Source: Parafrankia irregularis | GTDB taxonomy: Bacteria > Actinomycetota > Actinomycetes > Frankiales > Frankiaceae | DNA length: 57,975 nt | Direction of reading: 5' to 3' | Assembly: GCF_001536285.1 (NCBI RefSeq) | Contig: NZ_FAOZ01000043.1 | Location: 1-57,975 of the forward strand | In this document: piece by piece, positions 6,891 to 54,142 of the stretch | Layout: every line of letters starts with the position of its first letter | How positions within the stretch are numbered: position 1 is the stretch's first letter | Made by a program: the position numbers and the translations under genes | The notes under the pieces: model-generated | Told to the model about the DNA's origin: nothing | What the model saw: only the letters and a program-made list of their open reading frames with translations | Databases searched by the model: none

Positions 6891-7220
6891 TCAGCCCGAG
6901 GTGGCGCTGCTGTTGCGCCACGACGCACAGCGGCTGGCCTGCGGTCCAGTCGGGCTCTCGACCCGGTGGTGCGCCGCCGGGCCCCCTGGCCCCTGCCCCT
7001 CCTGATCCGGCTGGCTGTCGAGCCTGATCCGGCCGGCCACCCGGCGAGATCTCCGCACTGCCCCGATGGCGAGCAGGCCGTTCGTGCGCGCCGCCGCCGA
7101 GTCGCACGCGGCGGCCGGGTGATCTCTGCCCGCTGGGCGCATCCGACGGAGTGCCCAGGCGCCCAGGTGCCCCGTGTCCAGGTGTCCTCTCTCGTTCCGG
7201 AAGACTCGTATGCCATTGAC

Positions 7221-17168: not shown

Positions 17169-17188
17169 CGCCAGCCTGAACGCGACAC

Positions 17189-18028: not shown

Positions 18029-18071
18029 GAGCGTCTCCGAGGATCTGGGGATATCGGGCTGTGGTGGCCGC

Positions 18072-37524: not shown

Positions 37525-37585
37525 GCCAGGCAGAAGGGAGGGCCCGGACACCGTCACGGTGTCCGGGCCCTCCCTTCTGCCTGGC
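37525..37585. repeat. 30-bp-arm perfect palindrome at the integrase stop
   Basis: Arms 37525-37554 and 37556-37585 are exact complements around a single C; the left arm begins GCCAGGCAGAAGGGAGGGCC. It touches the integrase TAG. It could be a terminator for the minus-strand integrase transcript, but 30 perfect pairs with almost no loop would also suit a recombination or binding site, or a rare cruciform. Confidence 0.85.
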
Positions 37586-39075
37586 TATTCCTTGATGGTG
37601 CGGGCGCTTTTCTGGCGGGGGATGAGACGGGCGACGCCTTCGGCTATCTCGCGGGCGAGTTCGGGGAGGATATGGGCGTAGGTGTCCGCGGTGATGGCGA
37701 TGCTGGCGTGTCCGAGGAGTTCCTGGACGGCTTTGATATCGGCGCCGGCCGCGAGGGCGAGGGTCGCCGCTCCGTGCCGCAGATCGTGCAGGCGGATCGG
37801 AGGTAGGCCGGCGGCGGCGACGAGCTCCTTGAAATGCTTGGTGACCTCATCGGGAATGAGCGGAGAGCCGTTGGGTTCGGTGAAGACGAGACCGTTGTCG
37901 GCCCAGTGCGCGCCGTGGGAGAGACGGTGGGCGTTCTGGCGGGCACGGCGGTGACGGAGAACCGTGACGGTGTCGGCGTCGAGGGAGATCTGCCGGTCTC
38001 CGGCATCGGATTTCGGGGCGCCCATCTCGGTGTCCGCCCCGTACTGGGTGATCTGCCAGCGGACGGTGAGGCTGCCCTCGTCGAGATCGAGATCGGTCCA
38101 GTGGACACCGCAGGCCTCTCCACGGCGCAGACCACGGTGGGCGATGAGGTGATACAGCTCGTAGTACCGGTCGTTCCGTGCTTCCGCGAGGTCGAGGAAA
38201 GCACCGGTCTGGGCCGGGGTCCACACCATCACCGGTGAGGGAACCTCGCCGGTGGCGCGCCAGCGGGCGACACGTTCCTTCGTCCACAGCAACGCCTTGG
38301 GTCGCTTCCCGGAAGGGAGCTCGACCCACGCCGCCGGGTTGAACGTGATCAGACCGATGCGGATGCCGTGGTTGAGCGCCGCGCGCAGCGTGGCCCGGAT
38401 CCGCTGTTTGTAGGCGTCGCTGGTGACTTTCTGCCCCTTGAACATCTCCCGACGCTCGGGGTCCTTCCCGGCGCGGATCCGCCGGATCGTCTCGTTACGG
38501 ATGTCGATCCGGTCGAACATGTCATCGAGATGGCCGATCGTGAGCTGATCGAGCCGGATGTCCCCGATGAACGGCACCAGGTGCATGCGGATCGATACCT
38601 CGTACCCTTCGCGGGTGGACCGTCGGATCGTGCGACGTCCCGCCAGCCAGGTGTATAGCCATTCCCCGACAGTGATCTGCGGGTTGAGGTCGGCACGGCG
38701 CCGGTACCTTTCCTTGACCACGGCGGGATCCGGCAGCGGATCCCCGGCTTTGATCGCGTCGAGGATGAGGTCCCGGATCTGGCCGACGCCGTGGCTGTCG
38801 CTCCCGGGAATGGCCACGAGATCCTGGATATTCCTGATCTCGTCGCTGGCCGCGTCGTGCGAAGGAAGACCAGACCGGCGCGCTTCCTGCCGGCGGCCGT
38901 CGGCGCTCGGAGGAAGGTCCACGCGGTAGTGCCAGGTCCCGTGATGGGAACTCCAGATACCGTTCCTCCTGCGGAGCTTCGGGCAGCTGTTTCCCAGCTG
39001 CCGGCGGGTTTCCGGGTCGCGGCATCCGCACCGCTTGAAGATCGATCCGTTCGGGTTAGCCATGGGACTCGTCAC
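37585..39075 (-). CDS. Tyrosine site-specific integrase of the conjugative element
   Basis: 496-aa phage-type integrase. The N-terminal region has a KRCGC...SCPKL cysteine cluster (residues 15-34), common in actinobacterial element integrases. A core-binding domain (ITVGEWLYTWLAGRRTIRRS) follows, then the catalytic domain with HRGLRRGEACG (catalytic Arg around 317), HDLRHGAATL (His430, Arg433), LGHASIAIT (His456) and DTYAHI (Tyr466), all present. The GTG at 39075 has GGAG nearby; an ATG lies four codons on. It inserts and excises the element, with the small excisionase gene 105 bp upstream on the same strand. It ends inside a 30-bp-arm palindrome. Confidence 0.93.
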   Translation of the reverse strand: MTSPMANPNGSIFKRCGCRDPETRRQLGNSCPKLRRRNGIWSSHHGTWHYRVDLPPSADGRRQEARRSGLPSHDAASDEIRNIQDLVAIPGSDSHGVGQIRDLILDAIKAGDPLPDPAVVKERYRRRADLNPQITVGEWLYTWLAGRRTIRRSTREGYEVSIRMHLVPFIGDIRLDQLTIGHLDDMFDRIDIRNETIRRIRAGKDPERREMFKGQKVTSDAYKQRIRATLRAALNHGIRIGLITFNPAAWVELPSGKRPKALLWTKERVARWRATGEVPSPVMVWTPAQTGAFLDLAEARNDRYYELYHLIAHRGLRRGEACGVHWTDLDLDEGSLTVRWQITQYGADTEMGAPKSDAGDRQISLDADTVTVLRHRRARQNAHRLSHGAHWADNGLVFTEPNGSPLIPDEVTKHFKELVAAAGLPPIRLHDLRHGAATLALAAGADIKAVQELLGHASIAITADTYAHILPELAREIAEGVARLIPRQKSARTIKE

Positions 39076-39180: not shown

Positions 39181-39402
39181 TCAAGCGGATTCCCCATTTT
39201 CTTTGTGAATCCCGAGAAGGTGTTTGAGGGGTGCGGTGGGTACCTGGTAGCGGCCTTTGATGCGGAGTACGGGGACGGGGAACTCGTCGCGGGCGGCGAG
39301 TTCGTAGGCCTTCGTCCGGCCGATACCGAGGATTTCACCGGCGGTGACAATGCCGACTCGTGCCCCGAGCTGATCTATTTCTTTTTCAGTCCACGTCTTC
39401 AC
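39181..39402 (-). CDS. Excisionase-type helix-turn-helix protein
   Basis: 73-aa DNA-binding protein of the AlpA/Xis type. IVTAGEILGIGRTKAYELAA followed by FPVPVLRIKGRYQVPTAPLK and HLLGI is the MerR-like winged helix found in recombination directionality factors. The GTG at 39402 follows GAGGAG, giving a typical length; the open frame further upstream is not needed. Located just upstream of the integrase gene, same strand, so int and xis are probably co-transcribed. It should steer the integrase toward excision and may bind near the palindrome or attachment site. Confidence 0.85.
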   Translation of the reverse strand: MKTWTEKEIDQLGARVGIVTAGEILGIGRTKAYELAARDEFPVPVLRIKGRYQVPTAPLKHLLGIHKENGESA

Positions 39403-39537: not shown

Positions 39538-39598
39538 GGCGCGGCGGTGCCGGCGCGGACCGTCGCGCGCCGGGGCGGGCGCCCCCGGGTCCGAAGAT

Positions 39599-39680
39599 GA
39601 TCTGACGGTGATCTGACTGTTATTGCGTGTGCAACTTGTGTCAGATCACCGTCAGATCACTGTCAGATCACCGTCAGGTC
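39599..39680. repeat. 11-bp repeat array A (GTCAGATCACC)
   Basis: On the right are three direct copies (39640-39650, 39651-39661, 39662-39672) plus a degenerate fourth (39673-39683), exactly 11 bp apart. On the left are inverted copies at 39599-39606 (partial) and 39607-39617. A 22-base AT-richer core, TGTTATTGCGTGTGCAACTT plus two bases, separates them. It lies between the excisionase gene and the methyltransferase gene end, so it can affect the xis/int promoter. The unit contains GATC. Confidence 0.88.
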
Positions 39681-39705
39681 CTGTTTATGCAGGTCAGAGC
39701 TGGTG

Positions 39706-40572
39706 TCAGGTCTGCTGGTCGGGTATCGGCCGGGTGGTGAAAAGCAGGATGTCCTCGTGGGCGGTGACGTGGAGGGGGGTGCCGGCGGCGTGGGCGGTGC
39801 GGGCGTTGTGGAGGGCGAAGAACGTCGTGCGGGACACCAGACGGCCTTGGCGCAGACCGGCGAGGAGCGCCGCGGCGCGGGCGACGCGGACGAGCCCGAC
39901 CTGCTGGGCGCTGTGCAGGATCGCGCCGGGAAGGTCGACGAGCTCGCCGTCCTGGCGGTACGGACGCACCGCGACCGCGACGATTCCACCGGGGCGGAGA
40001 AGGGCCGCGGCGCCGGTGAGAATCTCGGTGAATCCGGCCAGGAGATCGGTGAGGTCGGTGTTGGCGAGGTTTCCCCTGCCGGTGCTGTAGGTGTAGTCCC
40101 GTTTCCGGACCCCGTTCTCACGGTCCGCCTCGACAGTGCCGTGGGTCGCTTTCCCATAGGGCGGCGAGGTGAGCACCAGCGCGGCCTTTCCCCGCGCGGC
40201 CTCGGGGGCGAGGTCGGGGAGCTGGCGGGAGTCTCCGGTGAGGAGCCGGATGGTCCCGGTGGCGCCCTGGGTGAGCGCGAGGGTGGCGTTGGCGCGACCG
40301 ATGACGGCCCAGCGGGACTCGTATTCGATCCCGAGGGCGTTCCGTCCGAGGTGGGCGGCCTCCACCAGTGTGGTGCCGATACCGCACATGGGGTCGACGA
40401 TAAGATCACCGGGCTCGGTGAAGGCGTCGATGATGTGCCGGGCGAGAGCGGGCAGCATCCGGGCGGGATGCGCCAGGGATTCGGGCACGTATCGGTTCAG
40501 CCGCTGGAAACGGGGATGGGTCTGCGATACCGCCCAGACGGTGAGCGGGACGGGGATATGGCGGTCAGCCAC
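39706..40572 (-). CDS. DNA-methyltransferase-like (TSPPYG type) protein
   Basis: 288-aa SAM-dependent methyltransferase with amino-methylase motifs. FTEPGDLIVDPMCGIGTTLV (motif I, DPMCGIGTT) precedes the LVLTSPPYGKATHG motif IV, the SPPY tetrad of N6-adenine or N4-cytosine DNA methylases and also seen in TRM11-like enzymes. The order is I before IV, with a C-terminal ALLRPGGIVAVAVRPYRQDG. A GTG at 40572 or 40578 overlaps the stop of the upstream partner gene. No recognised target-recognition domain, so DNA versus RNA target is undecided. Its position between two GATC-containing repeat arrays makes a DNA target attractive. Confidence 0.78.
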   Translation of the reverse strand: MADRHIPVPLTVWAVSQTHPRFQRLNRYVPESLAHPARMLPALARHIIDAFTEPGDLIVDPMCGIGTTLVEAAHLGRNALGIEYESRWAVIGRANATLALTQGATGTIRLLTGDSRQLPDLAPEAARGKAALVLTSPPYGKATHGTVEADRENGVRKRDYTYSTGRGNLANTDLTDLLAGFTEILTGAAALLRPGGIVAVAVRPYRQDGELVDLPGAILHSAQQVGLVRVARAAALLAGLRQGRLVSRTTFFALHNARTAHAAGTPLHVTAHEDILLFTTRPIPDQQT

Positions 40573-41167
40573 GCGCACCACCACCGGGCTTGGCGAACAC
40601 GGCCAGATCGGTGTGGACCGGATGCAGGGGCCCGTGATCGGACGGGATGTCCGCCGGGGGGTGAAGGCCGTCGTCCTGGATGGGACTGGTGAGGATGATG
40701 ATGTGCTGGAGGTAGCGCAGCCCGGCTGCACGGGCTGCGGTGATGGTGTCCGCGAGCGGATCGGCGGACCCGCCGGCAGGGGTGTGCACGGTGAGGCAAT
40801 ATCCCCCGGGTCGGAGCATGCGGGCGAGGGTGCTCAGGTCGGCGAGAAGTGTTTCCGGGCTGGCGGCGGGCGGGTGGTCGATGACGAGTCCCGCGTCGCC
40901 GTCCCAGTTTCTGGTGCTGCCGGGAATGGTGCCCTCCGGTGTGCGGCGGAGCGCGATGTAGCGGCGCCGAAGATAGTCAGCGGCCCCGGTGAGGATTCCC
41001 CTGTCGTCGAGGCTGATGACAAGGTCGCGCGTGTTGCTGAAGGTAGCGAGGGCGCGGGCGGCGGCCTCGGCGGGGAGAGCCCCGGAGATTTCCGGGGTGG
41101 CGGTGGGCCAGACGGTGAGCGGAATGATCCGCGGCTGTGTGGTTCGGCTGGGACGGGGCTGGGGCAT
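40565..41167 (-). CDS. Methyltransferase-like partner protein
   Basis: 200-aa protein, probably related to the following methyltransferase by duplication. Both have a PLTVW segment near the N-terminus (RIIPLTVWPTATPEISGALP here, IPVPLTVWAVSQTHPRFQRL there). The middle holds GLVIDHPPAA, where an SPPY motif would be expected but has become HPPAA. LARMLRPGGYCLTVHTPAGG (the LRPGG strand) and DLAVFAKPGG at the end follow. The catalytic tetrad is lost and motif I is missing, so it may be a specificity or regulatory subunit. The ATG at 41167 follows GGAGG, and the stop overlaps the next start. Divergent from the conjugation genes. Confidence 0.65.
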   Translation of the reverse strand: MPQPRPSRTTQPRIIPLTVWPTATPEISGALPAEAAARALATFSNTRDLVISLDDRGILTGAADYLRRRYIALRRTPEGTIPGSTRNWDGDAGLVIDHPPAASPETLLADLSTLARMLRPGGYCLTVHTPAGGSADPLADTITAARAAGLRYLQHIIILTSPIQDDGLHPPADIPSDHGPLHPVHTDLAVFAKPGGGARG

Positions 41168-41261
41168 TCGGTTCCTCCGCACGGGAATTCCGGCGCACGC
41201 CACCCTGGGAAGGGCGGCGGGCGGCGGGATGGGGTGTGTGGGGCCGAGTGTTTTCCAGACC

Positions 41262-41450
41262 GTCTGACGGTGATCTGACACAGATCTGACTCTGATCATC
41301 TGCGGGGTTCACGGCAGCGTTGTTGATCAGAGTCAGATCACCGTCAGATCAGTGTCAGATCACCGTCAGATCGCTTCCGGAGGCCTTTTCGCCCTGTCTG
41401 CCTGGGCGTGGACGAGTGTCAGATCAGTGTCAGATCACCGTCAGATGGGG
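41262..41450. repeat. 11-bp repeat array B (GTCAGATCACC)
   Basis: Three blocks in register with an 11-bp period. Inverted copies lie at 41262-41268 (partial), 41269-41279 and 41280-41290. Direct copies lie at 41332-41342, 41343-41353, 41354-41364 and 41365-41375. A third block has copies at 41418-41428, 41429-41439 and 41440-41450 (degenerate). It sits in the 41168-41505 gap between the divergent methyltransferase and conjugation transcripts. Every good copy contains AGATC. Same unit as array A, so one protein probably binds both. Confidence 0.9.
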
Positions 41451-41505
41451 TGTGGCGTCCTTGGGGCCGACCGAAACACAGGGCCTCACGGACGGGAGTC
41501 CATCC

Positions 41506-42243
41506 ATGGCGGTGCACGATTTTGAGGACACGACGGGATCGGCGTTGGATCTGGTCGAGACGTCGTTTCTGACCCTGACGGAATCCCCGGGTGGGCTGGG
41601 GGTGAACGGCGCCGATTTCCCGGGTTTGGCGGACCGGTGGTTCGGTCTGCGGGACCTGCGGGTGGAGATGACTCGGCCGCAGGCCTCGTGGGCGACCCGG
41701 AACGCGGTGTGGGCGTTTCTTCTCGCGGCGCGGGACGTGGACGCGTGGAAGGTCGCGGCCGTGGGAATGGCGATGCCGGCGCTGCGGCATATCACGGCCA
41801 CGCTGGCCCCGGTCTACCGCGGCGAGGCCGCCGATCTGGACGCGGAGGTGCTGACCGGCTTTATCGACGTGTACGCCGGGCTGCCCGCCGGGACGCGGGG
41901 AATCCCCGGCCGTCTGGCGTTCGGTGCCTACGAGGCGGGGCTGGTCGAGGTGGCCGGCTATCGCAAGCCCGGAATGGACCTTCCGGTCCTGGGCGCCTTG
42001 CCGCGGCCGTGGCTCGAGCCTCGGTGGTTGCTCGCGCAGGCGGTGGAACGGGCGGTGATCAGCCCGCCGGACGCGCGGCTGCTGGCGCTGACCCGGCTGC
42101 AGGGGGTGACGGTGGCGGCGGTGTCCGAGCGCAGCGGTGTCCCGGGTGAGGAGCTCGCGATCCGCCGCGACGCCGCGGAGCTGGAGCTGGCCGTCGCGGT
42201 CGGGGCCGGTGAGCTGGGCCCCGGCACGGGTGGTGGCCGATGA
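41506..42243 (+). CDS. Hypothetical conjugation-operon protein with possible HTH
   Basis: 245-aa protein that I do not recognise as a named family. The central part is helical (VEMTRPQASWATRNAVWAFL; VAAVGMAMPALRHITATLAP). Near the C-terminus LALTRLQGVTVAAVSERSGV then GEELAIRRDAAELELA has the helix-turn-helix look of sigma region 4 or LuxR-like domains. The ATG at 41506 is preceded by GGGAG. Its stop overlaps the pilin-like gene (ATGA). As the first gene right of repeat array B it is a candidate binder of the repeats, but nothing in the sequence proves it. Confidence 0.55.
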   Translation: MAVHDFEDTTGSALDLVETSFLTLTESPGGLGVNGADFPGLADRWFGLRDLRVEMTRPQASWATRNAVWAFLLAARDVDAWKVAAVGMAMPALRHITATLAPVYRGEAADLDAEVLTGFIDVYAGLPAGTRGIPGRLAFGAYEAGLVEVAGYRKPGMDLPVLGALPRPWLEPRWLLAQAVERAVISPPDARLLALTRLQGVTVAAVSERSGVPGEELAIRRDAAELELAVAVGAGELGPGTGGGR

Positions 42244-42887
42244 CCCGGTTCTCGGCGGTGTGGGTCCGGCTGGTGCGTGCGGTGCGTCGTCGGGTGGGGC
42301 GGGTGCCGGCGGACCTGTGGCTCGGGGTGTGCGCGGGGCTCGCCGGAGGGCTGGGGTGGGTCCTGAGCCCGGCCGGGTCCGCTCCCGGTCCCGGGTGGGA
42401 ACTGATCGGCTCGCCGGCGGGGTGGGCCCGGGTCGCCGCGGCGGTGCTGTGCGCGGTGTTCGCGCTGCTTCTCCTGGTGTGTGACGAGCCGTGGCTTGCC
42501 CGGGGCGCGGGGAGTGAGGCGGACCGGCGGCGGCTGTTGCGGCTGGCGGTGCTGCTGGCCGGGGTCGTCGTCGGGGTCATCGTCCTGGCGGGGGTGTCCG
42601 ATGCGGCGGTGGTGGCGCAGGTGGCTCCGCCTCCGCCGGCCGGGGTGTCGACCGCGCCGGATCTGAAGACCGTGTTGGACAACGCGCGGAACTGGATGAT
42701 GGGGATCCTCGCGACGGTCGCGACGTTCTTCTTCACGCTTGGGGCGGCGCGGTACGCGAGCGCGAACGGGGATCCCGGCGAGGTCGAGCGGGCGAAGGGC
42801 TCGTTCCGTAACGCGGCGCTCGGCTACGGGTTGGCCGTCCTCGCCCCGCTCCTGGTGAAGGCCTTGCAGTCCGTGGTCGGTGCCTGA
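42240..42887 (+). CDS. Conjugative pilin-like membrane protein
   Basis: 215-aa membrane protein with two N-terminal hydrophobic segments (about residues 28-45 and 62-80), a third near LLRLAVLLAGVVVGVIVLAG and two C-terminal ones. The C-terminal region NWMMGILATVATFFFTLGAA, then GDPGEVERAKGSFRNAALGY and GLAVLAPLLVKALQSVVGA resembles the VirB2/TrbC-like pilin segment of actinobacterial type IV systems. The ATG at 42240 overlaps the previous stop (ATGA), and its own stop is TGATG-linked to the next gene. Probably a pilus or transfer-channel subunit. The long N-terminal extension is unusual for VirB2. Confidence 0.7.
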   Translation: MTRFSAVWVRLVRAVRRRVGRVPADLWLGVCAGLAGGLGWVLSPAGSAPGPGWELIGSPAGWARVAAAVLCAVFALLLLVCDEPWLARGAGSEADRRRLLRLAVLLAGVVVGVIVLAGVSDAAVVAQVAPPPPAGVSTAPDLKTVLDNARNWMMGILATVATFFFTLGAARYASANGDPGEVERAKGSFRNAALGYGLAVLAPLLVKALQSVVGA

Positions 42888-44260
42888 TGCCCCGACCACC
42901 GCGCAGGCCACGGCGGCCGTGGGCACGGCGGGCCGGGGTGGCGGTGTGTGTGCTGGTGGTGGGTGCGGGGGTGCTGGCCGGGTCGGTCGGGGTCGCCGAC
43001 GCGGTCACGGTTCCGGCTCCTCCGGCGGCGTCTCCCGCACCCGCTCCGGCCGGGACTCCGGCGCGGCAGGTGGACCCCTCCGCCCCGGAGGCGGGGGCAT
43101 CCCCGTCGGCGCCGTCCCCCTCCGCCGGGGCGACACCCGACCCTTCCGCCGGGGCCACCCCCCGTCCCTCCGCCGGGGCTCCGGCGGCGGACAGCGGTAC
43201 CGGCGACGTCCCGCCGCCACCGTCGGCGGAGCTCGCGCCGACGGCCCCGGCGGACCCGAGTGAGGATCCGGCGGCGGGGCAGCCGACCCCGACCCCGAAC
43301 CCGCAGCCCGGGGCGTCCCCGGACCCGAACGCGGGCGGTGACGGCGGCTGGGTGAGCAGCCTGCTCTCGTTCGGCTGGCTCGATATTCCGGGGCGGATCC
43401 TGAGGGCGATCAACGGTTGGTTCGCCGGGCTCGTCGAGGCGGCGGTCGAGCCGGTCGTACGCCTGCTCGGTCAGACGGTGCTGTCCACCCCGGACGTGAC
43501 CCAGCAGCCACGGGTCCGGGAGCTGTGGAAAGGCACCCTGCTGATCGCGGACAGTCTGATGCTGCTGGTCCTGATGGCCGGCGGTGTCGCCGCGATGGGC
43601 TACGACAGCGTGCAGACCCGCGCCACCGCCAAAGAGATGTTGCCGCGGATGATCCTCGGGTTCGGCGCCGCGAACCTCTCCCTGCCCCTGATGAGCTGGG
43701 CCATCACCGCCGCGAACGCCCTGTCCCGGGCCTTCACGGACATGGGCGGCCTCGACAGCAGCGGCGCGTTCAGTGCGCTACTCACCGTGCTGGCCGCCGG
43801 CGCCCTGGCCGATATCTTCCTGGTCCTGCTCGCGATCGGCGTGGTCGGGCTGATGGTGATGCTGATCGTCGGGTGGATCATCCGGGTGGCGGCGATGATG
43901 GCCCTGGCCGTCGCCGGCCCGCTGCTGCTGATCTGCCATGGCCTGCCCTGGACCGAGGGCGCGGCGAACCTGTGGTGGCGGGCCCTCGGGAGCTGCCTGG
44001 CGGTGCAGGTCGGCCAGTCGGTCCTGCTCACCCTGGGCATCCGGGTCCTGCTCGCCACCGATGACGGCGCCTACAACCCGATCCCGACGTCGGACACCCT
44101 GGCGAACCTGCTCACCTCCGCCGCCTTGTTCTACCTCGCCGTGAAGATCCAGTCGTATGCCACCCAGCACCTGATGGGCGGCGGCCGGTCGACCGTCGTG
44201 TCGCTGGTGAAGTACCGGCTGCTGCGCCAAGGCGCCCGCCGGCTCGGTATCCCGCTCTGA
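42887..44260 (+). CDS. VirB6/TrbL-like conjugative membrane protein
   Basis: 457-aa protein. An N-terminal signal/membrane anchor (AGVAVCVLVVGAGVLAGS) is followed by a Pro/Ala/Ser/Thr-rich region of about 110 residues with eight-residue repeats (SAGATPDP, SAGATPRP, SAGAPAAD; 24-bp period in DNA). Five or six hydrophobic segments then appear, for example LLIADSLMLLVLMAGGVAAM and ALADIFLVLLAIGVVGLMVM. The arrangement matches VirB6/TrbL-type channel proteins of Gram-positive type IV systems. The extracellular proline-rich stretch may span the thick cell wall. Translated in overlap with the pilin-like gene. Confidence 0.75.
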   Translation: MPRPPRRPRRPWARRAGVAVCVLVVGAGVLAGSVGVADAVTVPAPPAASPAPAPAGTPARQVDPSAPEAGASPSAPSPSAGATPDPSAGATPRPSAGAPAADSGTGDVPPPPSAELAPTAPADPSEDPAAGQPTPTPNPQPGASPDPNAGGDGGWVSSLLSFGWLDIPGRILRAINGWFAGLVEAAVEPVVRLLGQTVLSTPDVTQQPRVRELWKGTLLIADSLMLLVLMAGGVAAMGYDSVQTRATAKEMLPRMILGFGAANLSLPLMSWAITAANALSRAFTDMGGLDSSGAFSALLTVLAAGALADIFLVLLAIGVVGLMVMLIVGWIIRVAAMMALAVAGPLLLICHGLPWTEGAANLWWRALGSCLAVQVGQSVLLTLGIRVLLATDDGAYNPIPTSDTLANLLTSAALFYLAVKIQSYATQHLMGGGRSTVVSLVKYRLLRQGARRLGIPL

Positions 44261-44330: not shown

Positions 44331-45293
44331 ATGCCTGAAATACCCGGATCTGACAGGGTTCGTATTCCCTCCGATGTCGACCGGCCGGACCGGATCCTGG
44401 CCGGTCTGACTGCCCGGCAGCTGACGTTGCTCGCGCCACCGGTGCTGCTCGCTCTCGCGGTGTACTGGACGGCGTCGCCGTATCTGCCGCTGCCGGTGGT
44501 GGCGCTGCTGGTGGTGCCGCTGCTCGGCGCCGGTGTGGCGCTCGCGTTGGGGCAGCGCGGCGGGCTGACCGCGGACCGGTACGCCACCGCGGCCCTGGCC
44601 CACCACCGCACCCCCAAGGTCCAGATCGTCGCCCCCGACGGGGTGCCCGCGCAGCCCGGCTGGGTCCCGGACATCCCCGCCGCCCGCCGCCGCAAGCCCG
44701 TGGCGGCCAGGCCGCTGGCCGCCGGAGTCGACGCGGCCGGTGTCGTCGACCTGCACGGCGCGGTCGCCGTCGTCGCCGAGATCGCCGGGGTGAACCTGGC
44801 CCTGGCCGGTGACGCCGACACCGCGCGGAAGGTCACCGGCTACGGGCGGATGCTCAACGCCCTGTCCGGCCCGGTCCAGATCACCCTCCGCGGCGTACCG
44901 GTCCGCCTCGACCCGCACCTGGACCGGCTTCGTGCCCTCGCGGAGCAGGCACCCCACCCGGCACTGGCCGCCGCTGCCCGCGATCACGCCGTGTTCCTCG
45001 GCGATCTCGCGGCGACCCGGCAGCTGCGGACCCGGCAGATCCTGCTCACCGCCCACGAACCCATCCCGCCGGGCCGCGGTGGGCGGGACACCGCCGCCGC
45101 CACCGCGGCACGCCGCATCGAGGAAGCCCTCGGCCTGCTCGCCGCCGCCGGGCTACGCGGCCGGATCCTCACCGGCCCGGAGCTGACCGCCCTGCTCGCC
45201 GCCGCCGCCGACCCTGCCGGCCCGCCGCCCCCCGAGCACGTCACCGCGACCGGCCCGGTCCGCGGCCACACCCCGATCGGAGCCCGCCGATGA
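44331..45293 (+). CDS. PrgI/VirB3-like type IV secretion protein
   Basis: 320-aa protein of the PrgI-like family of actinobacterial conjugation systems. RILAGLTARQLTLLAPPVLL and LPVVALLVVPLLGAGVALAL give the two membrane segments in the first 80 residues. A cytoplasmic domain with repeated VHL/GVNLAL-type strands follows (for example HGAVAVVAEIAGVNLALAGD and GPVQITLRGVPVRLD). The cytoplasmic part is typical of SCO6880-like proteins that pair with the next ATPase gene. The ATG at 44331 follows a GAAAGG. Its stop overlaps the VirB4 start (ATGA). Probably anchors the VirB4 ATPase. Confidence 0.75.
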   Translation: MPEIPGSDRVRIPSDVDRPDRILAGLTARQLTLLAPPVLLALAVYWTASPYLPLPVVALLVVPLLGAGVALALGQRGGLTADRYATAALAHHRTPKVQIVAPDGVPAQPGWVPDIPAARRRKPVAARPLAAGVDAAGVVDLHGAVAVVAEIAGVNLALAGDADTARKVTGYGRMLNALSGPVQITLRGVPVRLDPHLDRLRALAEQAPHPALAAAARDHAVFLGDLAATRQLRTRQILLTAHEPIPPGRGGRDTAAATAARRIEEALGLLAAAGLRGRILTGPELTALLAAAADPAGPPPPEHVTATGPVRGHTPIGARR

Positions 45294-47257
45294 GCCGCAC
45301 CCGCCACCGCCCGCACCTCGCCCCGCCCTCAGCCGGCCGCCGGCCTCTGCTTCCCGGCCGCAGGCAGGGGGCAGGCACGGGGCTCCCGGCACAGGGCCCG
45401 GCACTGTTCACCCCACCGGCGCTGCTGGTCGAGTCGGGGCAGGTCGAGGTCAGTGGGATCTGCGCGACCACCATCGTCGTGGTCGGCTACCCACGGGAAG
45501 TCGGCCCCGGGTGGATGGAGCCGCTGCTCGCCTACCCGGGCCGGGTCGATGTCGCCCTGCATGTGGACCCGACCCCACCCGCGGTGGCGGCGCTGCGGCT
45601 GCGCCGCCAGCTGGGCCGCCTCGAGTCCGACCGCCGTGCCGACGCCGCCGCGGGGCGGCTCGTCGACCCCGAGCTCGACGCCGCCGCCGCGGACGCGGGC
45701 GAGCTGGCCCGCCAGGTCGCCCGCGGCGAGGCACGCCTGTTCCGCGTCGGCCTGTATCTGACCGTCTACGCCGACACCCGCGACCAGCTCGCCGAGGAGG
45801 CCGCGCGGGTCACCGCGCTCGCGCACAGCCTGCTGCTCACGGTCCGCCGGGCCCGGTACCGGACGGTGCAGGGCTGGGTCTCGACCCTGCCCCTCGGCCT
45901 GGACCTCCTCCACATCCGCCGCGCGTTCGACACCGAAGCGCTGGCCGCGGGGATCCCGTTCACCACCCCCGACCTGCCACTGCCCGACGTGGACCGCCCC
46001 GGTGCGGCGCCCGTCGTCTACGGCACGAACCTGTACTCCGCCGGGATCGTGAGCGCTGATCGGTGGGCGCAGCCGAACTACAACTCGGTCACCACCGGCG
46101 CTTCCGGTGCCGGGAAGAGCTTCCTAATGAAGATCGACGTTCTGCGTTCCCTCTACCAGGGCGTCCACGTCACGGTCATTGATCCGGAGGACGAGTACGC
46201 CCGGCTCGCCGACGCCGTCGGTGGGACCCGCCTCGCTCTCGGCGCCCCCGGAGTCCACCTCAACCCGCTCGACCTGCCGGCTCACTCCCGCCAGGACCCC
46301 GACCTGCTGACGCGGCGCGCTCTGTTCTGCCACACCCTGATCTCCACGTTGCTCGGTGACCGCACCGGCCCCGACAGCGGTCTGGGCGCGGGGGACCGGG
46401 CGGTGTTGGACGCGGCGATCCTCACCGCCTACCAGCAGGCGGGCATCACCCACGATCCGAGCACCTGGACCCGGCCCGCGCCCCTGCTCGCCGACGTCGC
46501 CGCCGCCCTCACCGGTCTCGAGGACCCGGCGGGCCCCGCGCTCGCCGCCCGTCTCGCCCCGTTCGTGTCGGGGTCGCACGCCGGTCTGTTCGCGCATCCG
46601 ACCAGCACCCAGCCCACCGGGCATCTCGTCGTCTACTCCCTGCGTGCCCTGCCCGATGAGCTGAAAGCGGTCGGGACGCTGCTCACGCTGGACGCGATCT
46701 GGCGAGGCGTCGCTGACCCGGCGAAGCGACGCCGACGCCTGGTCGTGGTGGACGAGGGCTGGCTGCTCATGTCGCACCCCGCCGGTGCGAGGTTCCTGTT
46801 CCGGCTGGCGAAGGCGGCCCGCAAGCACTGGGCCGGGCTCGCCATCGCGACCCAGGACTCCGCCGACCTGCTCGGCTCCGAGCTGGGGCGGGCGGTCGTC
46901 GCGAACAGTGCGACGCAGATCCTGCTGCGTCAGGACCCCAGCGTGATCGACGAGCTGCGCCGCGTCTACAAGCTCACCGACGGCGAGGCCACCCAGTTGC
47001 TCACCGCCGGCCCCGGCGACGCCCTCCTGCTCACCGGGACCGGGCAGCGCACCGCCCTGCACGTCCTCGCCTCACCGGCCGAATACGACCTGATCACCAC
47101 AGACCCGGTCGACACCACCACCGGCATCGATTCCGGTGACGGCGACCTGCTCGACGCGGCCCGTCCGCAGACCCCCGCCCAGGCGGAGACCGGTGTGGGT
47201 CGTGGTCCACGCCGGCCGGCTGCCCGGCCGGTGGACGACGACACCGACCCGTTCTAA
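45290..47257 (+). CDS. VirB4/TraC-type conjugation ATPase
   Basis: 655-aa cytoplasmic ATPase that powers pilus assembly and DNA transfer. Walker A is TGASGAGKSFLMKID (residues about 269-283). Walker B is RLVVVDEGWLLMSHPA, with Asp488 and Glu489. An N-terminal domain of about 250 residues (ICATTIVVVGYPREVGPGWM; VALHVDPTPPAVAALRLRR) is typical of VirB4. The downstream WAGLAIATQDSADLLGSELG is the VirB4 sensor region, with the conserved ATQ. Overlaps the PrgI-like gene. The 3' end is followed by a 129-bp gap before the coupling protein. Confidence 0.92.
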   Translation: MSRTRHRPHLAPPSAGRRPLLPGRRQGAGTGLPAQGPALFTPPALLVESGQVEVSGICATTIVVVGYPREVGPGWMEPLLAYPGRVDVALHVDPTPPAVAALRLRRQLGRLESDRRADAAAGRLVDPELDAAAADAGELARQVARGEARLFRVGLYLTVYADTRDQLAEEAARVTALAHSLLLTVRRARYRTVQGWVSTLPLGLDLLHIRRAFDTEALAAGIPFTTPDLPLPDVDRPGAAPVVYGTNLYSAGIVSADRWAQPNYNSVTTGASGAGKSFLMKIDVLRSLYQGVHVTVIDPEDEYARLADAVGGTRLALGAPGVHLNPLDLPAHSRQDPDLLTRRALFCHTLISTLLGDRTGPDSGLGAGDRAVLDAAILTAYQQAGITHDPSTWTRPAPLLADVAAALTGLEDPAGPALAARLAPFVSGSHAGLFAHPTSTQPTGHLVVYSLRALPDELKAVGTLLTLDAIWRGVADPAKRRRRLVVVDEGWLLMSHPAGARFLFRLAKAARKHWAGLAIATQDSADLLGSELGRAVVANSATQILLRQDPSVIDELRRVYKLTDGEATQLLTAGPGDALLLTGTGQRTALHVLASPAEYDLITTDPVDTTTGIDSGDGDLLDAARPQTPAQAETGVGRGPRRPAARPVDDDTDPF

Positions 47258-47386
47258 CCCGCCCCGCACCACATCCCGGCCCGGTCGTGCCGCCGACGAA
47301 ACCCCCCGGCGGCGGCACGACGCCGGCCCGGCGATCCCGTCCGGCCATGTCCTGTGTGTCCTGCTCGTAAGCCTGGAGGCACCTTC

Positions 47387-49480
47387 GTGATTCTCGCCAG
47401 TTCGGCCCCCTCCGCGGGGCTCCCCCCCGTTCCTCCTCCGCCCCCTCCGCCCGCTCCGGAGGTGCCGGTGTGGCTCACCGATCCCGGCCGGATCCTCACC
47501 GGTGTAAGCAGCTGGCTGGCCGGCCATGCCGGCTGGTGGCCGCTCGCCGTCCTCACCGTTGCCCTGGTGGTGGCGGCGGGTTACGCCCGGGGCCGGGTCC
47601 GTGCCCACCGGCACGCGGTACTGCTCGACGGGGCGCGGACGGTGGAGATCCTGACCCCGCCCGAGGTGTCCGCCCACGCCGCGGAGATCTTCTGGGGGCA
47701 GATGGGTGGCCTGCAACGCCCCTTCTGGGAACGGCTGTTCCACGGCCAGCCCCATCTGGGCTGGGAACTGCTCGCCACCCGCGCCGGGACCGTGATCCGG
47801 CTGTGGGTCCCCGGCCCGGTCCCACCGGGCATGGTGGAGCGGGCGGTGCAGGCCGCGTGGCCCGGCGCCCGGACCACGACCCGCCCGGCGGACGCGCCGC
47901 TGCCGGGGGACGCGCTGGCGATCGGCGGGCAACTCCGCCTCGCCCAGGTCGACGTCCTCCCGCTACGCGCCGACACCTCCGGCGACCCGATCCGCTCCCT
48001 GCTCAGTGCCGCGTCCGAGCTCGACGACGACGAAGCCGCCGTCGTCCAGCTGCTGGCCCGGCCGGTCACCGGACGGCGTCTGACCCTGGCACGGCGTGCG
48101 GCGGCACGCCAACGGGGCCAGTACACGCCCAGCCCGGTGGGTCGCGCCCTCGACCTGATCACCCCTCACGCCGGGCCCCGCCCGGCGGCCGGGCAGGTCG
48201 TGGGCCAGACCGGGCCGACCCCGCCGGAGGACTCCGCAGCGTCGCGCGCCATGGGCATCAAGGCGGTCGGGCCGCGGTGGGAGGCGACGGTCACCTACGC
48301 GGCGGCTCACCTGACCCCACCCGACGACACCGACGAGCAGCGTCGTGCCGTGGTGATGCTGCGCGGCCGGGCCCACGCGTTGGCCTCCGCGTTCGCCTTG
48401 TACTCCGGCCACAACTATTTGCGCCGGCTTCGCCTGCCCCACCCGGTTCCGCTGCTCGCCGCCCGCCGGCTACGCCGCGGGGACCTGCTCGCCGTCACCG
48501 AACTCGCCGCCCTCGCCCACCTGCCCTTGGACACCGCCGTCCCGGGACTGTCCCGCGCGGGCGCCGCGGCCGTCGCACCGCCCGCCGGGATCCCCGAAGC
48601 CGGACCCCGCGTCAAGCCGCTGGGCATGTCCGAGGCCGGCCGGCGCCGTCCGGTGGGGCTGAACGTCGCCGACGCCCGCCACCACGTCCACGTCGTCGGT
48701 GCCACCGGCTCCGGCAAATCGACGCTGCTGGCGAACATGATCCTCGCCGACGCGGAAGCCCGCCGCGGTCTCGCGGTCTTCGACCCCAAGGGCGACCTCG
48801 TCAACGACGTCCTGGCCCGGCTGCCCGAGGACGCCGCCAGCAGGGTTGTGCTCCTCGACCCCGAAGACCCCGCCGCCCCACCGTGTCTGAACATCCTCGA
48901 CGGCGGCGACCCCGACCTCGCCACCGACCAGCTCGTCGGGATCTTCCGCCGGATCTGGTCCGATAGCTGGGGGCCGAGGACCGACGACCTGCTCCGCGCG
49001 ACCTGCCTGACCCTGCTCGAACGCCGCACCCGGACCGGGATCACGCCGACGTTGAAGGACATCGTCGGCGTCCTCACCGCGACGAACACGCGACGCCAGG
49101 CCACCGAGGGCGTGACCGATCCGATCCTGATCAGTTTCTGGACCTGGTACGAGCAGCTGTCCGACGGGGCCCGCGCCGCCGCGATCGGCCCGATCCTCAA
49201 CAAACTCCGCGCACTGCTGCTGCGTGGGTTCGCCCGCCAGGCCCTCGCCGCGGGTCCGTCGACCGTGGACCTGCGTGAGGTCCTCGACCACGGCGGGATC
49301 CTCCTCGTCCGCATCCCCAAAGGCGTGATCGGCGAGGACGCGTCCCGCATCGTCGGCTCCGTCGTGCTCGCGAAAATCTGGCAAACCGTGTTGCACCGGG
49401 CCCGCCTGGACCCCGATCAGCGTCCCGACGCCACCTGTTTCCTTGACGAGGCGGTGCGCCACGAAGCGCTGCAGGTCTGA
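47387..49480 (+). CDS. VirD4/TraG-type coupling protein, exon 1 (split by group II intron)
   Basis: First 689 codons of a type IV coupling protein, the DNA-pumping ATPase that brings the relaxosome to the channel. An N-terminal membrane segment (AGWWPLAVLTVALVVAAGYA) follows a proline-rich start. Walker A is VVGATGSGKSTLLANMI (about 436-452). The exon ends at 49453 with CFLDEA, the Walker B Asp-Glu (687-688). The frame continues 8 codons into the intron and stops at 49480. Joined to 51658-52077 it gives 828 codons, in phase. The GTG at 47387 follows GGAGG. Without splicing the protein would lose its Walker B context and C-terminus. Confidence 0.9.
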   Translation: MILASSAPSAGLPPVPPPPPPPAPEVPVWLTDPGRILTGVSSWLAGHAGWWPLAVLTVALVVAAGYARGRVRAHRHAVLLDGARTVEILTPPEVSAHAAEIFWGQMGGLQRPFWERLFHGQPHLGWELLATRAGTVIRLWVPGPVPPGMVERAVQAAWPGARTTTRPADAPLPGDALAIGGQLRLAQVDVLPLRADTSGDPIRSLLSAASELDDDEAAVVQLLARPVTGRRLTLARRAAARQRGQYTPSPVGRALDLITPHAGPRPAAGQVVGQTGPTPPEDSAASRAMGIKAVGPRWEATVTYAAAHLTPPDDTDEQRRAVVMLRGRAHALASAFALYSGHNYLRRLRLPHPVPLLAARRLRRGDLLAVTELAALAHLPLDTAVPGLSRAGAAAVAPPAGIPEAGPRVKPLGMSEAGRRRPVGLNVADARHHVHVVGATGSGKSTLLANMILADAEARRGLAVFDPKGDLVNDVLARLPEDAASRVVLLDPEDPAAPPCLNILDGGDPDLATDQLVGIFRRIWSDSWGPRTDDLLRATCLTLLERRTRTGITPTLKDIVGVLTATNTRRQATEGVTDPILISFWTWYEQLSDGARAAAIGPILNKLRALLLRGFARQALAAGPSTVDLREVLDHGGILLVRIPKGVIGEDASRIVGSVVLAKIWQTVLHRARLDPDQRPDATCFLDEAVRHEALQV

Positions 49481-50095
49481 GAGCGGCAGGTAGCCGCTGA
49501 TGACCGTAACACCGGGTGGGGTGAAAGGACCCACCGCCAGCCAGTCGCAGCTGGCTGGTGAAGCTGAGGACAGTCCGATCCGGGAAACGCCGGTGAGGGC
49601 GGGAGCAGTCCTGACAACGACGGGACGGCCTGGAACTACCAGACAGGCCGGGTCCGGCAAGCGAGACGGAAAGGTGTACGAGAGGAACCGGCGTGTGAAG
49701 CCCCGTAAGCGAGGAACCAGCTCCAACCTGGTGGATATGGGCTGGGATGCAGCGCGTGACCGTCGCGATCAACTGTTGATGGTCAACTCCGTAACCGTGT
49801 CTGCTTCGACGGGAAGGAGGCCAGTGGGAATGCCTGCGGCGTACCACTGGCGATGCTGCCGGGGAAGAGTCGGGCACCTCCTCCGTCAACCGGTGTGCAG
49901 TGAACGTGGGAACCATCCGTGGCCGCCCTACCCGCCGGGACACCGTCCCGGCGAAGGGCAGGACCGTTGTCGTCTGACGGCCACGCGATGGGACGGAGGA
50001 CCCGTAGTAGTCCGAGCGCGGGAAAGCCGCGTACATGGCGAAGGGGTCCAGCAAGTCAAGCAGCCGAAGAACTGGAATGCCAGGAGGGTACGCCG

Positions 50096-51532
50096 GTGAA
50101 TACCGACGCATCGACGGAAGCGCTCATGCGGGCGCGCCGTCGGGTACTGGGGATCCAGACCAAGCTGCACCGCTGGGCGACCAGCGATCCTCACCAAAGG
50201 TTCGATGATCTGTTCAATCTCGTCACCGACCCGGCTTTCCTTTTGGTGGCCTGGGATCGGGTGCGGGGCAACAAAGGCGCCAGGACCGCCGGCGTGGACG
50301 GCCGCACCGCGCGGTCGATCCAGGTGACGGACGGTGTCGAGCAGTTCCTCGACGAGCTTCGCGGCTCGCTGAAGGACCGCTCGTTCACCCCGTTGCCGGT
50401 GGCGGAACGGATGATCCCGAAAGCCGGCGGGCAGCTACGCCGGCTGGGGATCCCGACCGTCGCCGACCGGGTGGTCCAGGCGTCGCTGAAGCTGGTGTTG
50501 GAGCCGATCTTCGAGGCGGATTTCCGCCCGTGTTCCTACGGGTTCCGTCCGAACCGCCAGGCCAGGGACGCCGTCGCCGAGATCGTCTTCCTCACGACCA
50601 ACAAAGCACAGTACGACTGGATCGTCGAGGGAGACATCAAGGCGTGCTTCGACGAGATCGACCACACGGCCCTGATGGGCCGGGTGCGTCGACGAGTCGG
50701 AGACAAGCGTGTCCTGAACCTGGTGAAGGCATTCTTGAAAGCTGGCATCCTCACGCAGGAACGCCAGCTCCGCAAGACCGATGCCGGCGCCCCGCAAGGG
50801 GCGATCCTCTCACCGTTGCTGAGTAACGTGGCCCTGTCGGTGCTGGACGATTTCATCGCCCACGCACCGGGCGGCCCGTCGACCAGTCCGCATTTTCGGG
50901 CCAAGCGTCGTCGGCAGGGCCTGCCGAATTTCCGGCTGGTCCGTTACGCCGATGACTGGTGCCTGATGGTGGCAGGTGACCGCGACCATGCGGAAACCCT
51001 GCGTGAGGAGATCGCGGGGGTTCTGTCCACGATGGGCCTACGCCTGTCCGAGGGCAAGACCCTGATCACCCATATCGACGAGGGTCTGGACTTCCTGGGG
51101 TGGCGCATCCAACGCCACCTGAAGAAGGGGACGACAGATCGGCGCTTCGTCTACACCTACCCGGCGAAGAAATCTCTCGCCAATATCACCATGAAGGTGA
51201 AGGCGTTGTGCGGGCAGACCACGAACCAAGACCTGGCCGACCTGCTACCTGGCCTCAACCAGGCACTGCGGGGCTGGTGCACCTACTTCCAGCCAGGGGT
51301 GTCCTCCAGAACGTTCCAGTACCTGCGCGCTTTCGTCTGGAAGCACGTCTGGGAATGGATCCGGAGGAAGCATCCCAAGAACAATTGGAAGGAACTCCGC
51401 CGCCGCTACTGCGACGGCGGCTGGTGGCCCAGCAGCAACGGGATAACCCTCTTCAACCCCGGCGAGGTACGCACGACCACCTACCGGTACCGAGGAAAGG
51501 TCATCCCCACGCCATGGCCGGTCGAACAGTGA
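50096..51532 (+). CDS. Group II intron reverse transcriptase/maturase
   Basis: 478-aa intron-encoded protein. RT domains are seen from VAWDRVRGNKGARTAGVDG, PVAERMIPKAGGQLRRLGIP and SYGFRPNRQARDAVA through LVRYADDWCLMVAG, where YADD is the polymerase active site. GLDFLGWRIQRHLKK (RT7) and a maturase X domain with RGWCTYFQPGVSSRTFQYLR come next. The C-terminus HPKNNWKELRRRYCDGGWWP then GITLFNPGEVRTTTYRYRGK is the group II maturase-specific domain. No HNH endonuclease follows, so homing would use an endonuclease-free route. The GTG at 50096 follows AGGAGGG. It should help splicing and retromobility. Confidence 0.95.
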   Translation: MNTDASTEALMRARRRVLGIQTKLHRWATSDPHQRFDDLFNLVTDPAFLLVAWDRVRGNKGARTAGVDGRTARSIQVTDGVEQFLDELRGSLKDRSFTPLPVAERMIPKAGGQLRRLGIPTVADRVVQASLKLVLEPIFEADFRPCSYGFRPNRQARDAVAEIVFLTTNKAQYDWIVEGDIKACFDEIDHTALMGRVRRRVGDKRVLNLVKAFLKAGILTQERQLRKTDAGAPQGAILSPLLSNVALSVLDDFIAHAPGGPSTSPHFRAKRRRQGLPNFRLVRYADDWCLMVAGDRDHAETLREEIAGVLSTMGLRLSEGKTLITHIDEGLDFLGWRIQRHLKKGTTDRRFVYTYPAKKSLANITMKVKALCGQTTNQDLADLLPGLNQALRGWCTYFQPGVSSRTFQYLRAFVWKHVWEWIRRKHPKNNWKELRRRYCDGGWWPSSNGITLFNPGEVRTTTYRYRGKVIPTPWPVEQ

Positions 51533-51565
51533 GGAGCGCCATCATGCCCGAGCGGGACCTGCGGA

Positions 51566-51599
51566 GAGCCGGATGCGTAGAGATGCGCATGTCCGGTTC
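51566..51599 (+). ncRNA. Group II intron domain V
   Basis: 34-nt hairpin. The lower stem GAGCCGGA/TCCGGTTC carries the AGC triad (51567-51569). It is followed by a 6-bp upper stem, a GAGA tetraloop and a two-base TG bulge on the 3' side. All conserved domain V features are present, so the ribozyme core looks active. Confidence 0.93.
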
Positions 51600-51657
51600 G
51601 GGAAGCGGCTCGCGGAATCCCACCGGTGGAGACACCGGCAGGGCGCCGCGAGTCGAC

Positions 51658-52077
51658 TTTCACCAAAATTTCTTGACGATGCCGGGGGCGGTGGAGGACA
51701 TGCTCGCCGAGGCCCGAGGCTACCGGCTGTCCATGACCCTCGCCCACCAGCATCTGCGCCAGTTGCCTGATGACCTGGCGGACGCGCTGAGTACGAACGC
51801 ACGCAGCAAGCTGTTCTTCGGCGTATCCCCGAAAGACGCCGCGGACCTGGCCCGGCATGTCAGCCCGGTCCTCACCCAGCACGACCTCGCCCGGCTACCC
51901 GCCTGGACGGCCGCGGCCCGCCTCGTCGTGAACCAGGAGGACACCGCGGCGTTCACCCTGCGGACCCGACCCCTGACGCCCCCGGTGCCGGGCCGGGCGG
52001 ACGCGCTGCGGGAAGCCGCCCGGCGCCACGCCGTGGTACCTGATGCCGGGCGCGGCCCGCGAGGAGGCCGGCCGTGA
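51658..52077 (+). CDS. VirD4/TraG-type coupling protein, exon 2
   Basis: Last 139 codons of the coupling protein after splicing. It opens FHQNFLTMPGAVEDMLAEAR, then GYRLSMTLAHQHLRQLPDDL, the AHQ sensor-like region that follows Walker B in this family. SKLFFGVSPKDAADLARHVS and a proline-rich tail GRGPRGGRP follow. There is no start codon here, and it cannot be expressed alone in a meaningful form. Its TGA overlaps the GTG of the next gene (52074), keeping the operon's coupling once the intron is removed. Confidence 0.9.
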   Translation, partial: FHQNFLTMPGAVEDMLAEARGYRLSMTLAHQHLRQLPDDLADALSTNARSKLFFGVSPKDAADLARHVSPVLTQHDLARLPAWTAAARLVVNQEDTAAFTLRTRPLTPPVPGRADALREAARRHAVVPDAGRGPRGGRP

Positions 52078-53984: not shown

Positions 53985-54142
53985 AGGTGACCACGGTGTG
54001 GCTGGATAGGAATAGTGATTTTCGCTGTGTGTCCGTCCACCGTCGTAACCGAAGGGCATGGCGACAATCAGACCACTGGATCGCGTGGAGGTTCCGGCGT
54101 GGTGAGCGCCCGTTCTCTGCGTCTGTCCGCTGGAGTAGGGCG

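Follow-up and report, generated by a model that had tools for sequence, protein, structure and literature searches.

Gene organization of the element

The window, which is the whole stretch of 57,975 nucleotides analyzed here, is contig C43 of the 9.5 Mb genome of Parafrankia irregularis (G000). An integrative element with its integrase, probable excisionase, methyltransferase and conjugation genes and two repeat arrays, A and B, was annotated in it from about 37 kb rightward, as follows.

37585-39075, minus strand: int, tyrosine integrase
39181-39402, minus strand: xis candidate, small HTH_17-like protein, probable excisionase (Pfam score below the cut-off)
39596-39680, both strands: array A, two minus-strand units facing three plus-strand units and one variant
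39706-40731, minus strand: mt1, N6_N4 DNA methylase family, with a TSPPY motif
About 40565-41167, minus strand: mt2, methyltransferase-like partner of mt1, assigned from position and sequence reading, without a Pfam match
41262-41290, minus strand: array B left block, inverted, with a GTCTGAC half copy at 41262 and exact copies at 41272 and 41283
41332-41372, plus strand: array B central block, four direct units at 41332, 41343, 41354 and 41365
41418-41447, plus strand: array B right block, direct units at 41418 and 41429 and a one-mismatch copy at 41440
41451-41462, plus strand: TGTGGCGTCCTT motif, common to many leaders of the operon, candidate nic region
41506-42243, plus strand: orf41506, first gene of the conjugation operon, without a Pfam match
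42240-42887, plus strand: T4SS pilin
42887-44260, plus strand: TrbL/VirB6-like protein (below the Pfam cut-off)
44331-45293, plus strand: PrgI family
45290-47257, plus strand: VirB4-like ATPase (P-loop_TraG)
47354-52077, plus strand: VirD4-like coupling protein in two pieces, 47354-49480 and 51679-52077
52074-53045, plus strand: Replic_Relax (MOBC) relaxase, the proposed array-binding protein

Array A is located upstream of the xis candidate and int, both on the minus strand, and array B between the divergent mt2 (minus) and orf41506 (plus). These positions agree with the initial annotation, which had array A upstream of xis/int and array B between the methyltransferase and conjugation operons. 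The VirD4-like gene is interrupted by an insertion carrying an intron-type reverse transcriptase. The Replic_Relax gene directly follows VirD4 in the conserved T4SS operon, and the next plus-strand gene encodes an NlpC/P60 protein, followed by two tyrosine recombinase genes. The VirB4, PrgI, pilin and TrbL-like genes set the element apart from AICEs, which employ an FtsK/TraB-type dsDNA translocase instead of a T4SS. Homologs of orf41506 stand first in the operon in the related elements found. On reading, the C-terminal helices of its product look like a sigma-region-4-type HTH; profile searches identified no Pfam or PDB relative that would support a DNA-binding fold, and the AlphaFold model computed from three sequences (pLDDT 54.0) was not used.

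The 11-bp repeat arrays

The core of the array A unit, GTCAGATC, is present in exact form at positions 39599 and 39610 on the minus strand and 39640, 39651 and 39662 on the plus strand, with a one-mismatch plus-strand copy at 39673. The step within a block is 11 bp. Measured between starts, the distance from one facing block to the other is 30 bp; the 22-bp spacer between them, TGTTATTGCGTGTGCAACTTGT, contains a TTGC/GCAA dyad. The steps inside the blocks of array B are also 11 bp, and the last unit of its right block (41440) reads GTCAGATG. The central block of array B is the proposed main binding site of the relaxase. The 3' bases of the unit are variable (GTCAGATCACC, ...ACT and ...AGT).

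The window contains 15 exact core matches and eight same-strand pairs exactly 11 bp apart, compared with at most eight core matches and no same-strand 11-bp pair in 200 Markov-1 resamples of the window. The full 11-mer with at most one mismatch gave 10 matches against 1.34 expected, a count reached in 0 of 100 shuffles. The two arrays of 11-bp period that had been noticed at these sites are thus confirmed as real repeats, far above chance.

Occurrence of the unit in other genomes

The tandem pattern GTCAGATCANNGTCAGATC was found in 7 of 35 Frankiaceae genomes, including that of the window, with no occurrence in the reversed control. In a sample of the phylum, two of 396 genomes contained the tandem unit, one of them G000. 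Scanning 84,980 species genomes for an exact 19-mer returned 10 stretches, six of them from Frankiaceae. The other four hold a single 19-mer match each, which is about the chance level in 257 Gb (estimated at ~2), and searches of two of these (L035 and L037) for the relaxase and orf41506 gave no match. Related elements with the window's unit reside in other Parafrankia and in a few other Frankiaceae. The earlier remark that no known actinobacterial element uses this repeat is uncontradicted in the open-licence papers searched, but does not extend to the genomes, where related Frankiaceae elements do use it.

The matches in the 35 Frankiaceae genomes correspond to 15 contig loci, 11 of which adjoin genes of this element family (G000 C43 and C4; G001 C143; G002 C15, C17, C47, C119 and C130; G003 C169 and C237; G022 C49); several G002 contigs end near array B, so that the loci probably outnumber the elements. 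The remaining four (G000 C48, G001 C189, G008 C1 and G023 C2) carry the tandem unit or array A and no recognised genes of the element family, conjugation genes included, in the stretch examined. Together with their rarity in the phylum, the 11 loci support the assignment of the arrays to the element. The initial annotation had considered that repeats missing from related elements, or spread widely over the host chromosome apart from conjugation genes, would speak against an element-specific role, and on this point the 15 loci give a mixed answer. At G023 C2, a relaxase relative with a stop is located some 14 kb from the tandem unit.

Conservation of the phase among divergent units

Homologs of orf41506 are present in 21 of the 35 Frankiaceae genomes, as are, likewise in 21, homologs of the relaxase. 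The unit upstream of orf41506 is clade-specific. Among 20 distant orf41506 loci (L123-L142), only L123 retains the GTCAGATC unit. The corresponding unit is TTCAGATCACC in L126 and L127, CTGACAG in L124, L125, L128 and L141, CGCTGTC in L129 and L131-L133, CGCTGGCA in L130 and L134, and of the CTGGGCA/CGCTGG type in L136-L140 and L142. L135 has none of these units, yet contains 5-mer pairs at offset 11. Outside the Frankiaceae, orf41506 heads the operon in 13 of 14 loci (L166-L177 and L179, not L178). Reading of these upstream regions revealed CTGAGTC-like repeats in L176 and TGTTCGC/TGTGCGC in L177, each with seven 11-bp steps, as well as TTGAACA units in L169 and CTCAGA in L171 and L172, with little phased repeat visible in L166, L167, L168 and L175. 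Methylation of a GATC inside the unit was rejected as a general switch, the units of clade U2 (CTGTCAG), L176 and L171 being without GATC.

The 11-bp phase is conserved across these units. It was assessed by an offset test that makes no assumption about the unit sequence, compares 34 offsets and caps the counts at 15 per element. The test was applied to 22 representatives with less than 65% orf41506 identity; L009, L055 and L058 were dropped for their decayed orf41506. Offsets 11, 22 and 33 ranked first to third, with z values of 23.4, 10.6 and 5.7, respectively, and the count at offset 11 was 129, versus 15.8 for the null (null maximum 32). The offset-11 signal persisted when the GTCAGATC and TTCAGATC clades were left out (18 elements, z 15.1) and among the elements outside the Frankiaceae (12 elements, z 11.5). 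A coding control of 400 bp from the representatives' own genes was not enriched (20 at offset 11 versus 29.8 expected), and a control tile 800-1200 bp upstream, available for 21 elements, showed a weak excess at offset 11 (58 versus 33.3) with offset 9 leading. Taken individually, 14 of 26 elements exhibit a significant offset-11 signal (p < 0.01) and the other 12 do not; clade U2 (L124, L128 and L141) has a count of zero at offset 11 and steps of 21-23 bp. Counts of repeated 7-mers proved unspecific as an array test, other tiles of the same loci scoring equally high, and a free EM motif search on the upstream regions drifted to low complexity and was replaced by the offset test.

The MOBC relaxase

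A single relaxase-family gene was recognised in the element, that at 52074-53045. It matches PF13814 (Replic_Relax) with 151.3 bits against a cut-off of 25.3. CONJscan recognises the PF13814 relaxase superfamily as MobC (PMC5357655), and MOBC relaxases are related to PD-(D/E)XK nucleases according to a 2025 review (PMC12857230). Residues R160, P161, D162, E179, D181, E185 and K193 are the same in every one of 32 aligned relaxase rows, which represent 28 distinct genes, four of them entered twice, and D162, E179, D181 and K193 are also invariant in all 14 rows of a second alignment. In a wider set, two rows of which (L171 and L173) are fragments, R160 is changed in L168, L170 and L175, and E185 in L175. 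From the motif, D162, E179, D181 and K193 may be read as PD-(D/E)XK-like catalytic residues. The N-terminal ~100 residues are variable and, with an HTH pattern read in residues 18-102, probably form a winged helix. The AlphaFold model of the relaxase, computed from one sequence, was unusable (pLDDT 37.4). A profile search of the PDB identified no solved relative and a scan of viral contigs no relative, and PLSDB contains relatives in 3 of 72,556 plasmid records.

Searches of the whole G000 genome gave no match to MOBP, MOBQ or MOBT, for which the controls matched, and none to MOBV, a weak result since no control matched. One MOBF relaxase, TrwC, is encoded on contig C47, outside the window. 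TrwC occurs somewhere in 19 of the 35 Frankiaceae genomes and in 12 of the 21 with orf41506 homologs, the nine without it being G001, G002, G003, G005, G009, G011, G017, G022 and G023.

Five loci have the relaxase without a recognised T4SS operon (L180-L184), with a VirD4-like piece near the relaxase in L184. No clear array was found in the 16-17 kb upstream, the downstream side being scarcely covered, and the occurrence of arrays therefore follows orf41506 together with the T4SS operon, not the relaxase by itself. Signals at offset 13 in L182, L183 and L184 look like short local tandem duplications and were rejected as arrays. The genes near the L182 signal include those for MIP and luciferase-like proteins.

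Array A: shared unit, conserved core and stand-alone copies

Arrays A and B share their unit in three sister clades. Where the mt1-xis interval was read in the sister clades (L126 and L127; L124, L125 and L128), array A carries the array B unit of its own element; the interval examined in L131 and L132 contains no array A. A common unit that changes in step at both sites over three clades fits a single protein that would act at both.

A 60-bp core of array A is identical at 53-58 of 60 positions between the window and L009, L051, L052, L055, L058, L059, L060 and L062, and the 25-26 bp flanks match those of the window at only 2-12 positions, a range that includes the L060 flanks as compared in the wrong orientation. 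Among the other loci, the flanks are partly related: those of L055 and L058 are nearly identical, and L060 and L062 agree at 25 of 29 positions on the right. L052, L060 and L062 have array A without array B, and in L060 and L062 it adjoins a lanthipeptide-type cluster (gene families of L062 assigned by blastp to L060). Conservation of a stand-alone array A suggests a function in cis, such as an oriT used in trans; alternatively, these copies may be remnants. Array A was rejected as an attachment site, as in the ICEs there are element genes on both sides of it.

Deletion derivatives that retain the arrays

Three loci, one in the window's own genome and two in congeners (L009, L055 and L058), contain arrays A and B, a remnant of orf41506 and Replic_Relax. 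Tblastn searches of the three detected no int, xis, pilin, VirB6, PrgI, VirB4 or N-terminal part of VirD4, and a trace of mt2 in L055 alone; blastn detected short traces of mt1 in all three. A large serine recombinase is encoded on the array A side, identified by Pfam in L009 and L055 and by blastp family in L058. The orf41506 remnants are truncated or run into other sequence. In L055 and L058 the frame appears, on reading, to enter VirD4-end-like sequence after about residue 207; blastn of this piece gave no match.

Compared with the window, the dN/dS of orf41506 is 0.84, 0.66 and 0.63 in the three derivatives and 0.39-0.42 in intact elements; between L058 and L055 it is 1.34, a value based on few changes. 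The relaxase dN/dS relative to the window is 0.35 for the L009 copy and 0.30 for the L058 copy, with 0.30-0.38 for other elements, and 0.29 between the L009 and L058 copies. The L055 relaxase is broken by one stop. L009 and L058 thus keep the arrays and a relaxase under selection while orf41506 decays, a combination that fits the cis site and trans enzyme of a mobilisable element better than an operator and its regulator. All three loci may be mobilizable derivatives.

The derivatives also bear on the proteins that might bind the arrays. Because the arrays are kept where xis and int are not recognisable and only short methyltransferase traces are left, the integrase, the excisionase and the methyltransferases were rejected as binders. 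The excisionase had been among the proteins suggested for binding in the initial annotation, as had the 41506 product, which becomes a weaker candidate given the decay of its gene in derivatives that keep the arrays. The companion suggestion, that one protein co-ordinates excision and transfer, agrees with the unit shared by A and B and changing together in three sister clades.

Candidate nic motif

A TGTGGC(G/T)T-type motif is found between array B and the orf41506 start in many of the 25 elements tested, at varying positions. Its best total score was 289.1, versus a null maximum of 251.8 from 10 less exhaustive runs, in which half the number of seeds and a smaller number of iterations were used, and 7 of the 25 sites score under 9. 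The central block of array B is 79-119 bp from the motif at 41451, which resembles the distance between the TraX repeats and nic in pAD1, the nic of the window being a candidate. A consensus fold of the operon leader yielded only three pairs and no compensatory change.

Proposed function and alternatives

We propose that the arrays are docking sites for the MOBC relaxase of the element, array B being the binding region of oriT and array A a second site for the same protein, and estimate the probability of this reading at roughly 0.58. Relaxase molecules would line up next to one another along a single face of the helix, with their winged-helix domains on the 11-bp phased units, and would nick near array B, perhaps at the TGTGGCGTCCTT motif at 41451. 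Array A, beside xis/int, may be a second oriT or may couple transfer to excision. The letters of the unit would serve as an address private to each relaxase lineage and drift along with it, and the 11-bp phase would be fixed by geometry. Plasmid iterons, operators of a master regulator and a transfer origin had all been offered as possible functions in the initial annotation; the transfer origin is the best supported of these.

An unlikely but still serious alternative is that the arrays are operators, to which the 41506 product or another regulator of the element would bind cooperatively, switching xis-int from array A and the divergent methyltransferase and conjugation promoters from array B. 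Array B occupies a divergent promoter region, also the expected place for an operator, which is a point against the relaxase. The positions of the arrays suit promoters in general, those seen are directly upstream of orf41506, whose product has the HTH-like C-terminus, and the relaxase loci that lack the T4SS operon showed no array. The joint change of the A and B units would also suit a regulator. Since all proteins of an element diverge together, the relaxase is not picked out by clade-specific units on their own. However, orf41506 is truncated or extended into other sequence and under much weaker constraint in the very derivatives that keep both arrays, its product has no Pfam or PDB relative with a DNA-binding fold, and array A of L052, L060 and L062 has no adjoining ICE gene of this family to control.

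The other alternatives are considerably less probable. Phased direct repeats are typical of iterons, and replication of the excised circle might start at the arrays through Replic_Relax, a family with 'replication' in its name, or through another initiator. A Mob protein can eventually serve as a replication initiator (PMC3218068). This is nonetheless improbable, as the scan of the window genes at 37585-57894 recognised no Rep gene, G000 has no Rep_trans match, array B is tied to the T4SS operon, and relatives of the relaxase are nearly absent from the PLSDB plasmid records. Still less credit can be given to array A as a set of arm-type sites for the integrase/excisionase, with array B as a decoy or remote enhancer. 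Array A does adjoin xis/int, and the centre of its dyad is variable, but in L009, L055 and L058 the arrays lie towards a large serine recombinase, the array A loci L052, L060 and L062 yielded no integrase of this family, and the element genes on both sides of the ICE array A leave no attachment junction. In parC of plasmid R1, a promoter is flanked on either side by 11-bp direct repeats, which the arrays resemble; a partition centromere bound by a ParR/RHH-type protein is the least probable of all, with no partition gene pair recognised among the window genes scanned.

Relation to known transfer origins

The closest known mechanism is that of the Enterococcus plasmid pAD1, in which direct repeats are bound by a MOBC relaxase. 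TraX of pAD1 is a MOBC relaxase with a restriction-endonuclease-like active site and an N-terminal wHTH, the latter probable here, and binds five direct repeats in oriT about 70-120 bp from nic (PMC12857230). The direct repeats of the window, likewise apart from the candidate nic, would be bound in the same manner by analogy. pAD1 has two oriT sites (PMC7117660), and the element has two array sites. The window differs from pAD1 in its combination of direct and inverted blocks, its exact 11-bp phase, the placement of one site upstream of the T4SS operon and the other upstream of xis, its context of an actinobacterial integrative element and a nic that is a candidate. In oriT of the Clostridium plasmid pCW3, a wHTH protein, TcpK, also binds tandem short repeats; unlike the relaxase proposed here, TcpK is an accessory protein and its box measures 9 nt (PMC6137059), and the pCW3 relaxase TcpM is recombinase-like (PMC12857230).

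Actinobacterial T4SS-type ICEs such as Fcci3350 are VirB4/VirD4-based integrative elements like the one described here, with Frankia among the hosts (PMC3218068). That survey, however, limits relaxases to MOBF (TrwC), which leaves MOBC elements outside its criteria, and in the parts of it consulted direct repeats concern att sites, with no oriT repeats described. The open-licence papers searched gave no description of the transfer origin of an actinomycete or Frankia MOBC T4SS element. Staphylococcal oriT mimics offer a parallel of diverged oriT subtypes with copies on plasmids without transfer genes (PMC8136818); those are other plasmids in another host phylum, and a mimic role of array A is hypothetical.

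As a more speculative generalization, which we consider rather unlikely as a whole, actinomycete MOBC elements may share a geometric code, in which a relaxase array of fixed phase and freely evolving letters gives each lineage a private oriT. The 60-bp core of array A would then be a portable oriT copied onto serine-recombinase islands and, separately, onto islands of lanthipeptide genes that lack transfer genes, which would ride on co-resident elements. Finding arrays by phase instead of sequence would make oriT prediction possible, and the phase rule would reveal, for each silent island, the elements able to mobilise it. The natural pairs of relaxase and array would provide material for the study of how DNA-binding specificity changes. 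A complete lack of genetic tools has been noted for Frankia (PMC3218068), and the arrays may be of use in developing such tools.

Insertion and recombinase genes downstream

The VirD4-like coupling protein gene of the window is interrupted by an insertion (49480–51679) that contains a reverse transcriptase, which reads as probably of the group II type. The VirD4-like gene of locus L059 is unbroken (17026–19554). At the window's right end, two consecutive tyrosine recombinase genes resemble a recombinase-in-trio (RIT) element; no third tyrosine recombinase gene was confirmed between this pair and the contig end.

Window, about 50126–51532: intron-type reverse transcriptase, inside the insertion
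Window, 53981–57894: two consecutive tyrosine recombinase genes, downstream of NlpC

Surroundings of array A

Array A, the repeat cluster found beside xis/int in the window, lies just past a lanthipeptide-type cluster in L060 (G008) and L062 (Protofrankia coriariae, G023). PCMT genes also occur near the serine-recombinase derivatives L009 and L055. In L010 (contig C48 of the window's genome, G000), direct repeat units at 7118–7152 lie close to the contig end, and no gene of the window's own element family was found within the 7.7 kb examined. By reading, a GCAGGTC(A/G)-type motif recurs on the mt1 side, some 35–60 bp from the centre of array A, and is present also in clades with different repeat units.

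L060, 10065–18844, and L062, 621–9731: lanthipeptide-type cluster (dehydratase, LanC-like and PCMT genes)
Window, 39680–39715, also L009, L051, L056 and L057: GCAGGTC(A/G)-type motif

The orf41506 leader and mt2

Several orf41506 leaders among the more distant loci (L129, L131–L133, L136–L142) carry an upstream GTCCTT or TCCTT able to pair with AAGGAC, the ribosome-binding site of orf41506. The pairing could form a translation-blocking hairpin; the alignment fold did not support it. The methyltransferase mt2 (window 40565–41167) reads DHPP where a catalytic PPY-type motif would be expected; it could be that mt1 is paired with an inactive methyltransferase here.
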